Of a stretch of DNA of 64,000 bases, positions 19,848-31,522 are shown in pieces. The notes under the pieces were generated by a model that was not told the origin of the DNA, did no database searches, and saw only the letters and a program-made list of their open reading frames with translations. This stretch comes from Chitinophaga caseinilytica (GTDB lineage Bacteria > Bacteroidota > Bacteroidia > Chitinophagales > Chitinophagaceae). The stretch's first letter is position 1, and each line of letters opens with the position of its first letter. Position numbers and translations under genes: made by a program. The stretch lies in contig NZ_CP150096.1 of assembly GCF_038396765.1 (NCBI RefSeq), forward strand, positions 1,471,001 through 1,535,000, written 5' to 3'.

Positions 19848-21284
19848 ATGAGCCAAAGAGTAAAAATCAGGCAGGTCCTCCAGGACGAAAGGACAAACTA
19901 TGAAGTAACGGTTAAAGGATGGGTGCGCACCTTCCGCAATAACCAGTTTATAGCACTGAACGATGGCTCAACCAATAATAACCTCCAGGTAGTGGTAAAC
20001 GAGGCCGACATGGACCCCGCCACCTTCCGGCGCATCACCCGCGGCGCCGCCATCAGCGTCACCGGCCAGATCATCCCCTCCCTCGGCAAAGGCCAGCGCG
20101 TGGAACTGAAAACCGCCAGCCTGGAGATCCTGGGCGACTGCGATGCCGAAGCCTATCCCATCCAGCCCCAGAAGCAAAGCCTGGAATTCATGCGCGAAAT
20201 CGCCCACCTGCGCTTCCGCACCAACACCTTTGGCGCCGTGTTCCGGATCCGCCACTCCCTGGCGTTCGCCGTTCACCAGTTCTTCCACCTCAAGGGTTTC
20301 GTGTACCTCCATACGCCCATCATCACCGCGTCTGACGCAGAAGGTGCCGGCGAAATGTTCCGCGTCACCACCCTCGACATGAAGAACCCGCCCCGCAACG
20401 AAGCCGGCGAAATCGATTATAAGGAAGACTTCTTCGGCCGCTCCACCAACCTCACCGTTTCCGGTCAGCTGGAAGGCGAGCTCGGTGCCATGGCTTTCGG
20501 CGATATCTACACCTTCGGCCCCACTTTCCGGGCAGAAAACTCCAACACCGCCCGCCACCTGGCGGAATTCTGGATGATCGAACCGGAAATGGCTTTCTAT
20601 GAACTGAAAGACAATATGGACCTCGCCGAAGAGTTCATCAAATACGTCATCAAATTCGCGCTGGACAATAACCGGGAAGACCTCGAATTCCTCACCCAGC
20701 GCCTCGCGGACGAAGAAAAACAGAAACCGCAGGCCGAGCGCAGCGAAATGGGGCTGATCGAAAAACTCGAATTCGTGCTCAACAACGAGTTTGAGCGGAT
20801 CACCTACACCGAGGCCATCGACATCCTCCGCAACAGCAAGCCCAACAAAAACAAGAAGTTCACCTACCCGATCGATGCCTGGGGCGCCGATCTGCAGAGC
20901 GAGCACGAACGCTTCCTCGTAGAGAAACACTTCAAGAAACCCGTGATCCTGACCGATTATCCCGCCGCCATCAAATCGTTCTACATGAAACAGAACGACG
21001 ACGGGAAAACGGTCCGCGCGATGGACATCCTGTTCCCCGGTATCGGCGAAATCGTGGGCGGATCGCAGCGGGAAGAGAACTACGACAAGCTCGTGGCCCG
21101 CATGAACGAACTGAACATCCCCGTGGAAGAGCTGTACTGGTACCTGGACACGCGCCGCTTCGGCACCGCGCCCCACGCCGGTTTCGGCCTCGGCTTCGAG
21201 CGCCTGGTGCTGTTCGTGACCGGTATGACCAACATCCGCGACGTGATCCCCTTCCCCCGCACGCCCAAAAGCGCGGAATTCTAG
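19848..21284 (+). CDS. asnS: asparagine--tRNA ligase
   Basis: This 478-residue class II synthetase charges tRNA-Asn. The start is the ATG at 19848 (MSQRVKIRQ), and the upstream extension crosses the promoter. The OB-fold anticodon-binding domain occupies about residues 10-110 ([13 protein letters not shown]). The catalytic domain has EGAGEMF, motif 2 ([21 protein letters not shown]) and motif 3 ([15 protein letters not shown]) near the C terminus, all diagnostic of AsnRS rather than AspRS. A central charged insert (about 275-310) is common in Bacteroidota. It is a single-gene unit with its own terminator. Confidence 0.97.
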
Positions 21285-30591: not shown

Positions 30592-30710
30592 GAGGGCGCA
30601 AAAGTACGAAAAGGGATCAAAACCCCTATCTTGCGGACGCCGGGTGAGCCGGAAAGGGCGGAATTTCGTGTGCGGAACGGTTGGGAATGGAGGGTGTGAT
30701 GGCGGGAAAA

Positions 30711-30741
30711 ACAAAACGCACCGGCGTAAACCGGTGCGCTG
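30711..30741 (-). terminator. intrinsic terminator of the tRNA-like RNA
   Basis: Read leftward, the stem GCGCACCGG / CCGGTGCG is followed by TTTTGTTTTT. It begins only a few nucleotides after the acceptor end of the tRNA-like element, so that RNA has its own terminator. Confidence 0.8.
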
Positions 30742-30747
30742 AGATGC

Positions 30748-30888
30748 TGTAGGGGTAGGAGTCGAACCTACACGAGGCAGTTAGCCATAGCACAAATAAG
30801 ATTAGTGGTCAACCCATTACGCTACGTTTATCCCGTGATCCTCACCCCCGAGACGAGAGGGCATGTCTGCCAATTTCATCACCCCACA
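30748..30888 (-). ncRNA. tRNA-like RNA with class II (Leu-like) body and oversized variable arm
   Basis: Read on the minus strand, the element has a 7-bp acceptor stem (TGTGGGG / CCCTACA), a Leu-type D arm (ATG-AAATTGGCAGA-CAT), a 5-bp/7-nt hairpin in the anticodon position (CCCTC-TCGTCTC-GGGGG) and a canonical T arm (GTAGG-TTCGACT-CCTAC). The loop in the anticodon position has C33 instead of U33 and a pyrimidine at 37, so normal decoding is doubtful. Between it and the T arm are about 70 nt instead of the usual 12-20, bracketed by GAGG/CCTC. No CCA is encoded. It has a promoter and terminator of its own. It may be a non-decoding tRNA-derived RNA, a tRNA damaged by an insertion, or an unfamiliar tRNA that automated finders would score poorly. 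Confidence 0.6.
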
Positions 30889-30939
30889 AAGTTGATAATT
30901 CCCTTGGCTGGGTAAGCGTTGTTTTCAACGATTATGATG

Positions 30940-30971
30940 CAAATCTAAAGAGAAGGGGTATTTTTTGCAAA
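30940..30971 (-). promoter_or_regulatory. promoter of the tRNA-like RNA
   Basis: On the minus strand TTTG (30971-30968), a 20-nt spacer and TAGATTTG (30947-30940) match the Bacteroidota consensus exactly. The predicted start near 30933 gives a transcript of about 225 nt, with a short leader hairpin (CGTTG-AAAA-CAACG) before the tRNA-like part. Confidence 0.75.
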
Positions 30972-31054: not shown

Positions 31055-31522
31055 ATGAGCCACAATTTGAATATTGACAAACTGGACCTGCAGATCATCA
31101 GCGAGATGATGTCTAACGCTGAAATCTCCTATGCTGACCTGGGGAAGAAGCTGTTCGTATCAGGCGGTACGATCCATGTAAGGATGAAGAAACTGCAAGA
31201 ACTGGGTATCGTTAAAGGTACGCGATTACATGTAGATTTAAAAATGATCGGGTACGACGTCATCGCTTTCATCGGCATTTTCCTCGAAAAAAGCTCCATG
31301 TACGACACTGTGGCGAAGGAATTGCGCAAGCTTCCCGAGATCGTCCGCCTTAATTACACCACCGGCGGCTGGAGCATGTTCGCAGAAATCATTTGTAAAG
31401 ATATCTCCAACCTCCGCCGCGTGCTGCACGATGAGCTCCAGAAAATCAAAGGGATCGAGCGCACCGAAACGTTCATTTCCCTCGAAGAAAGTTTCACGCG
31501 CACCATCAACGTAGTAGAGTAA
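31055..31522 (+). CDS. Lrp/AsnC family transcriptional regulator
   Basis: This 155-residue DNA-binding regulator responds to amino acids. The N-terminal winged helix-turn-helix (about residues 5-65) contains LDLQIISEMMSNAEISYADLGKKL and VSGGTIHVRMKKL. The C-terminal RAM/AsnC ligand-binding domain (about 70-150) has the beta-alpha-beta-beta pattern with GGWSMFAEIICKD and IERTETFISLEES. The targets are unknown. Its promoter region is shared with the divergent tRNA-like RNA. Confidence 0.94.
   Translation: MSHNLNIDKLDLQIISEMMSNAEISYADLGKKLFVSGGTIHVRMKKLQELGIVKGTRLHVDLKMIGYDVIAFIGIFLEKSSMYDTVAKELRKLPEIVRLNYTTGGWSMFAEIICKDISNLRRVLHDELQKIKGIERTETFISLEESFTRTINVVE

Follow-up and report, generated by a model that had tools for sequence, protein, structure and literature searches.

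A widespread tRNA-like RNA of Bacteroidota and viruses with a giant variable arm and an altered tRNA-Asp loop, a candidate carrier for asparagine synthesis

A stretch of 64,000 nucleotides from Chitinophaga caseinilytica (NZ_CP150096.1, positions 1,471,001 to 1,535,000; the window) carries on its minus strand an RNA that is shaped like a tRNA, has a giant variable arm and an unusual loop at the anticodon position and lies back to back with a gene for an Lrp-family regulator. This raises the question of what such a tRNA is kept for and whether it takes part in decoding. Read directly from the sequence, the RNA has its own promoter, leader hairpin and terminator, as the earlier note had described. 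The promoter is of the Bacteroidota type, TTTG-N20-TAGATTTG (30940..30971; TTTG at 30971-30968, TAGATTTG at 30947-30940). It is followed on the same strand by the leader hairpin CGTTG-AAAA-CAACG (30917..30930), the tRNA-like RNA (30746..30889) and an intrinsic terminator (30707..30739) with a hairpin at 30737-30718 and the T tract GTTTTGTTTTT. The strict promoter pattern was found in 94 of 244 distinct bacterial upstream stretches, compared to 1.15 expected from simple shuffles, and in none of 62 viral upstream stretches.

The boundaries and arms of the RNA, all on the minus strand, were placed by a covariance model, an alignment and pair counts. With U1 at 30888, G73 at 30747 and C74 at 30746, the RNA measures 144 nt if C74 and one base 5' of U1 are included and 142 nt from U1 to G73. 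The window copy scores 169.2 bits with covariance model R1, of which it is itself a part. The 5' strand of the 7-bp acceptor stem (U1 G2 U3 ..., 30882..30888) pairs with 30748-30754. The D arm (30863..30879) has the stem AUG/CAU and keeps A14, A15, G18, G19 and A21. The anticodon-position arm (30845..30861) consists of 5 bp and the 7-nt loop TCGTCTC (30850-30856), with G34U35C36 at 30852-30854, a pyrimidine 37 at 30851 and C38 at 30850, and the T arm is GTAGG TTCGACT CCTAC (30755..30771). Between the anticodon-position stem and the T stem lies the giant variable arm of 73 nt (30772..30844). It is closed by the stem GAGG/CCTC (30840-30843 with 30774-30777), continues in the internal loop GGGAUAAA/CUAACUG (30827-30834/30778-30784) and the P2 stem (30786-30826) and bears the apical motif GGGTTGACCAC (30805..30815), which is found in long-form members. 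The internal loop GGGAUAAA (GGGAYAAA)/CUAAC (CUAAY) may resemble the helix 8 internal loop of 16S rRNA. A pseudoknot between the loop bases GUCUC and GGGAU fits the window copy and one relative (L035) by eye and was rejected, as it fails in viral and several other members.

Searches for known families gave no name for this RNA. ARAGORN, which also seeks tmRNA, reported nothing in the window or in 23 loci that include the window's own, and Rfam 15 at gathering scores gave no match within the window. Searched by E-value around the RNA and in eight relative loci, Rfam 15 returned weak matches only, none of them a credible family; around the RNA of the window, the sole match on its strand is one of 17 nt to the tmRNA T arm with 8.3 bits. 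No description of such an RNA was found in the openly licensed literature searched. The RNA is a large and widespread structured family without a report from ARAGORN or Rfam 15.

The comparative evidence for the fold is decisive. Forty-nine copies were aligned, and a plain MAFFT alignment of 25 copies, the window copy included, was used for pair counts. In this alignment the acceptor, D, anticodon, GAGG/CCTC and T helices are paired in 100% of cells and the P2 helix in just 71%; none of 500 shuffles reaches any of five measures, and every slid control falls far below. In a second alignment, made of 20 wider and more divergent copies with two viral ones among them, 99.6% of cells pair, and compensatory changes occur in every one of the five helices; of 500 shuffles a single one reaches one measure, and the other four measures are reached by none. 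The acceptor stem is 100% paired in both alignments, with U1-A72 and G2-C71 in all rows. The folding energy of the RNA alone is unremarkable (z -1.16). The tRNA stems and the first stem of the variable arm are kept by compensatory changes, including the acceptor, GAGG/CCTC and anticodon-position stems that the earlier note had singled out for such a check. The element is real and tRNA-shaped, and its cloverleaf has the compensatory support expected of an elongator tRNA.

In a BLAST search with the element, matches were obtained in 42 of 59 genomes, including the window genome and all 35 relatives of the genus. The covariance model finds the RNA in 210 of 348 genomes of the order Chitinophagales (best E < 1e-20 counted), a count for which stricter filters were used, so that divergent members may be missed; the weakest counted match has 1.1e-29 and the strongest uncounted one 3.1e-16. 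A draw across the phylum yielded 40 carriers among 395 genomes, 17 of which are also in the order draw. Besides the order itself, these carriers represent other families of its class and one family (f68) from a different class, and the weaker, uncounted matches of this draw have for the most part 84-88 nt, as an ordinary tRNA-Leu does. A pattern scan found at least 120 loci, and the matches listed include Chitinophaga, Terrimonas, Niabella, Ferruginibacter, Saprospiraceae, Cyclobacterium, Algoriphagus, Dyadobacter, Spirosoma, Fulvivirga and Marivirga, of which Cyclobacterium and Dyadobacter belong to the Cytophagales. The covariance model was run on 80 of these loci and matched in all 80, a few being clipped at contig ends.

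The family extends to viruses. The anticodon-arm pattern matches 89 IMG/VR stretches, and the covariance model finds a member at 80.8 bits or more in all 80 of them on which it was run, one clipped at a contig end. Eight large proteins from seven of the viral loci were assigned by family matches: five to terminase, portal or DNA polymerase, and one each to GroEL, a carbamoyltransferase and a family of unknown function. Of 40 viral loci examined for them, 22 have ordinary tRNA genes in the stretch that carries the RNA and 5 have a tmRNA there; the viral contigs L289, L252, L297, L302 and L245 carry tmRNA together with several tRNAs, with up to 19 tRNAs in L289. Forty Lrp/AsnC neighbour proteins gave no tblastn match in the 89 IMG/VR stretches. 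With blastn, three viral copies had no match among the named phages of INPHARED and the window copy had none among the plasmids of PLSDB.

The loop was compared in 117 copies that had not been picked by loop pattern; in this set overlapping loci were kept and the expression missed L090, L091 and L100. TTGTCTC occurs in 66 copies, CTGTCTC in 27 and TCGTCTC, the type of the window, in 18, followed by CGGTCTC (2), CTCTCTC (2), CCGTCCC (1) and CTTTCTC (1). Members outside the expression have CAGTCYC (f68), TTGTCCC (f23) and CTATCTC (G446). The usual loop of the family is YUGUCUC, which is a tRNA-Asp loop with a pyrimidine at position 37. As a general rule an elongator tRNA has a purine at 37, and not one of the 117 copies does; all have a pyrimidine there. 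Every one of the 117 copies has U35, C36 and C38, and 114 have G34. Four genomes from two families have lost G34 (L109 in G683, L112 in G749, L113 in G534 and the short form of G446) and carry A, C or U at this position. U33 is found in 96 copies and lost in 21, the window copy being without it, and the f68 copies carry A33. The earlier note had regarded both the missing U33 and the missing purine at 37 as marks of this loop: the second holds throughout the family, while the first is no family trait.

The ends are still more uniform than the loop. All 116 distinct bacterial copies end in CAGC (C71 A72 G73 C74) and 115 of them start with N-U1-G2; 25 of the 116 had been extracted with an expression in which the ends are fixed, and 91 without it. 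The sole departure, a second copy in Cyclobacterium sp. SYSU L10401 (L129 190-315, minus strand), has A1 opposite A72. The variable arm varies more. In the window's relatives the internal loop GGGAYAAA stands opposite CUAAC and is followed by a stem of very variable length, with GGGTTGACCAC near the tip in long forms and missing from short forms of 112-120 nt. At several loci long and short copies stand in tandem; arrays of at least two copies were seen at L072, L080, L084, L093, L364, L365 and L176, and several of these pair a long copy with GGGTTGACCAC and a short one without it. A natural armless form of 78 nt exists in G446 (L369 838-915, minus strand), with a short variable region, the loop CTATCTC and the same ends, which shows that the giant arm is not essential everywhere.

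Identity elements can be read against the tRNAs of the window genome, for which ARAGORN typed 48 tRNAs in the stretches taken, a partial inventory. Its tRNA-Asp has the loop CTGTCAC and G73 and its tRNA-Asn has U1-A72 and G73. The three tRNA-Gln genes are without G73 in the same reading, with A73 in two and T73 in the third. Compared to these tRNAs, the RNA shares the loop of tRNA-Asp except at position 37, where it has a pyrimidine, the acceptor-end pair and discriminator of tRNA-Asn, the D arm type of tRNA-Leu and the core and T loop of tRNAs in general, and it differs from them in the 73-nt variable region of the window copy with its conserved domain. By sequence the RNA thus reads as a chimera of an Asp loop changed at position 37 and an Asn acceptor end. 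The part of PMC9976931 consulted names G73, G34, U35, C36 and C38 as strong aspartate determinants and attributes the amidation of Asp-tRNA(Asn) to U1-A72. With an Asp-type loop, U1-A72 and G73, most copies combine the five strong determinants for aspartate with the determinant for amidation by GatCAB. Among the elements of an AspRS substrate, G73, U35, C36 and C38 are present, whereas G10 and G1-C72 are missing: the window copy has A10, and all 20 rows of the second alignment have U1-A72. The U1-A72 pair of a GatCAB substrate is found in 25 of 25 and 20 of 20 alignment rows, with U1 in 115 of 116 distinct copies. The earlier note had typed the RNA as Leu-like, and the D arm is indeed of this kind; the assignment fails on the discriminator, which is A73 in tRNA-Leu (PMC9976931, same part) and G73 in 116 of 116 distinct bacterial copies, and on a loop that is that of tRNA-Asp except at 37.

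Other tRNAs of odd proportions differ from the RNA. In tRNA-Sec, selC* tRNA-Cys and allo-tRNAs the acceptor branches are 8/5 and 9/3. The RNA has an ordinary 7+5 bp branch and a loop that is not of the suppressor type, and its arm, with internal loop and apical motif, is far larger than theirs, although the tRNA fold with unusual proportions and a long variable arm is common to all of them (PMC7609411, in the part consulted). With tmRNA it shares the tRNA-like acceptor and T arm; unlike tmRNA, it keeps the D stem and the anticodon arm.

The gene divergent from the RNA (31055..31522, plus strand) encodes an AsnC-like regulator of the Lrp family, as judged by PDB and NCBIfam profile matches. Its best PDB match is AsnC (2cg4, 116.7 bits), and against the NCBIfam AsnC equivalog it reaches 156.4 bits, below the cut-off of 227, so that the protein is called AsnC-like and not AsnC. 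The Lrp neighbour pointed out earlier proved to be a conserved link: of 226 bacterial loci, which partly overlap and some of which end close to the RNA, 155 have an Lrp-family gene near it, and 160 of 175 clustered Lrp-family proteins are encoded by the first upstream gene on the opposite strand. Among the f1 genomes tested, the AsnC-like gene is present in 8 of 8 with the RNA, in 2 of 2 with gatB and without the RNA and in 3 of 15 with neither. TrmB was found in loci of the genus alone; six loci from other families gave no match.

GatCAB, whose presence was judged by gatB searches in the same genome draws, occurs together with the RNA. Among 348 genomes of the order, 203 have both, 7 the RNA only, 57 gatB only and 81 neither, so that gatB is present in 203 of 210 carriers; the counts ignore kinship, and shared ancestry inflates the association. 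All seven RNA-only genomes (G127, G147, G150, G189, G218, G249 and G311) are assemblies of about 290 contigs or more. In family f1 the RNA and gatB are present or absent together: of 110 genomes 92 have both, 1 the RNA only, 2 gatB only and 15 neither, and among these 3 discordant genomes the two with gatB only are G175, in which the first 53 nt of the RNA stand at a contig end, and G240, in which 163 bases separate the start of the regulator from a contig end and the expected place of the RNA is therefore largely missing. Family f18 (96 genomes with family given) has 64, 1, 5 and 26 genomes in the same four classes and the other 142 genomes of the order, 15 of them without family given, have 47, 5, 50 and 40. 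Family f23 has seven genomes with both and three with neither, and in each of the genera g27, g28 and g50 some genomes have both and others neither. All 40 carriers of the phylum draw have gatB. GatB without the RNA is common, in the 57 genomes of the order (above all in other families) and in most genomes of other classes. The co-occurrence suggests that the tRNA is kept for making asparagine and not for reading codons.

All 25 f1 genomes chosen for the purpose have AsnRS and GlnRS over cut-off, so that GatCAB is not needed there for Asn- or Gln-tRNA in translation. The coexistence of GatCAB with AsnRS and GlnRS has been pointed out for several clades, and Bacteroidetes are among those with genera that hold the three enzymes and no Asn synthetase (PMC4206432, as far as the part consulted goes). 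In the window genome no asnA match was found, and its sole asnB-type match sits among glycosyltransferase genes; the protein best matches an exopolysaccharide-system amidotransferase (523.9 bits, below the cut-off of that model) and reaches 280 bits against PRK09431 AsnB, with a cut-off of 499. One further carrier, G142, has neither asnA nor asnB over cut-off. The AsnB-type model TIGR01536 is over cut-off in 21 of 25 f1 genomes tested, including 7 of the 8 with the RNA. AsnA was found in 3 of these 25, all three without the RNA (3 of 15 without RNA and gatB; 0 of 8 with the RNA). Among 80 further genomes it was found in f18 in 2 of 26 without RNA and gatB, 3 of 40 with the RNA and 0 of 2 with gatB and without the RNA, and in other families in 3 of 12 without RNA and gatB. 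A replacement of the RNA by asnA, hinted at by f1, is not seen in f18 (2/26 vs 3/40), so that asnA is no simple substitute. Similarly, no clean split of AsnB-type proteins between genomes with and without the RNA was found among 21 proteins compared, a part of all matches; one AsnB subfamily occurs in four genomes lacking the RNA and in the carrier G246. A single residue of the anticodon domain tells discriminating from non-discriminating AspRS, and the window AspRS has an insertion at this residue, where the alignment is ambiguous.

The RNA is probably non-decoding. The reading we favour, with slightly less than even confidence, is that of a decoding-dead tRNA which would be charged by AspRS, amidated by GatCAB and thereby used for making asparagine. 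In this proposal a tRNA has left decoding and is retained for biosynthesis. With its own promoter and terminator beside the AsnC-like regulator and folding, by the covariation, as a full tRNA, the RNA may be processed like one. AspRS would charge it with aspartate by way of the tRNA-Asp-type loop and G73, and GatCAB would amidate Asp to Asn through U1-A72, with which the co-occurrence agrees. Since Asn on a GUC tRNA would misread Asp codons, the proposal needs exclusion from the ribosome, for which pyrimidine 37 and the giant arm are candidates. The asparagine would then be released or passed on, the AsnC-like protein may tune transcription to asparagine, and phages may carry the RNA and use it with host enzymes. 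According to the part of PMC4206432 consulted, Deinococcus, Thermus and Bdellovibrio make Asn on tRNA-Asn with AspRS and GatCAB, in genomes that likewise hold AsnRS, GlnRS and GatCAB together and on a tRNA with the U1-A72 pair. There the carrier is an ordinary tRNA-Asn and the AspRS is non-discriminating, whereas the candidate carrier proposed here is a tRNA of its own that apparently does not decode and has an Asp-type loop and a giant arm.

The fuller picture of a metabolism-only, decoding-dead aspartyl/asparaginyl-tRNA under AsnC-type control, which would explain the kept GatCAB and serve phages as an auxiliary metabolic RNA, is more tentative. If true, it would mean that a tRNA freed from decoding can persist as an enzyme substrate for amino-acid synthesis, provide a substrate for the GatCAB that many Bacteroidota keep despite AsnRS and GlnRS and constitute a new kind of phage cargo. 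Even without this mechanism, there is a widespread structured RNA family with sharp, testable predictions on the charging amino acid and the enzymes. Several observations speak against asparagine synthesis on this RNA: the loss of G34 in four genomes, the missing G10 and G1-C72, A33 in f68, AsnB-type genes in 7 of 8 carriers tested, the lack of an anticorrelation with asnA in f18 and the 57 order genomes with gatB and without the RNA. The apical domain GGGTTGACCAC is not accounted for by the mechanism.

That domain, conserved beyond the needs of a tRNA, is among the points that would favour a tRNA-derived regulatory RNA, a reading that we regard as unlikely but that fares best among the alternatives. 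Charging would not be required; the RNA would sense or compete for AspRS, GatCAB, the AsnC-like protein or the ribosome and regulate amino-acid metabolism, and the link to GatCAB would be regulatory or indirect. The AsnC-like neighbour and the loss of G34 fit this as well, but the near-invariant U1-A72, G2-C71, G73 and C74 and the intact core exceed what a simple decoy needs, and the apical domain is missing from the short forms. Of the non-decoding regulator that the earlier note had offered as one possibility, the non-canonical loop and the probable absence from decoding stand, and the regulatory role ranks behind a biosynthetic tRNA.

A decoding tRNA for a special event, either recoding or Asp/Asn ambiguity at GAC, would have position 37 and the arm fitted to a dedicated factor, as tRNA-Sec is to SelB. 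U33 in 96 and GUC in 114 of 117 copies would suit it, and so would the ordinary tRNA genes beside 22 of 40 viral copies. It is made improbable by the pyrimidine 37 in every copy, the loss of U33 in 21 of 117 and A33 in f68, by a first anticodon base that is not fixed and by the ordinary tRNA-Asp of the genome. Equally doubtful is a class II tRNA that carries another amino acid, such as Ser, for non-ribosomal transfer as in envelope modification. The long arm and G73 are features recognized by SerRS (PMC7609411, in part), and the D arm is of Leu type; however, the conserved Asp-type loop, U1-A72 and the co-occurrence with gatB would be left unexplained, and bacterial Ser identity includes C72 (PMC9976931, in part), which the RNA does not have. 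A tRNA gene that is decaying or has taken up an insertion, which the earlier note had also considered and which the silence of ARAGORN at the locus might recall, has next to no probability, because every helix shows compensatory changes, selection acts on the stems in different families and classes and in viral copies, and all 35 genus relatives have a match, as has the window genome; random decay of the stems is not seen, and of the ordinary-sized relatives that would point to a simple insertion there is the one armless form of G446.

Near the RNA and the AsnC-like gene the window also holds asnS (AsnRS, 589 bits; 19863-21281, plus strand), at a distance of about 10 kb. The gene lies about 6 kb from the pair in G059 and far away from it in G142.
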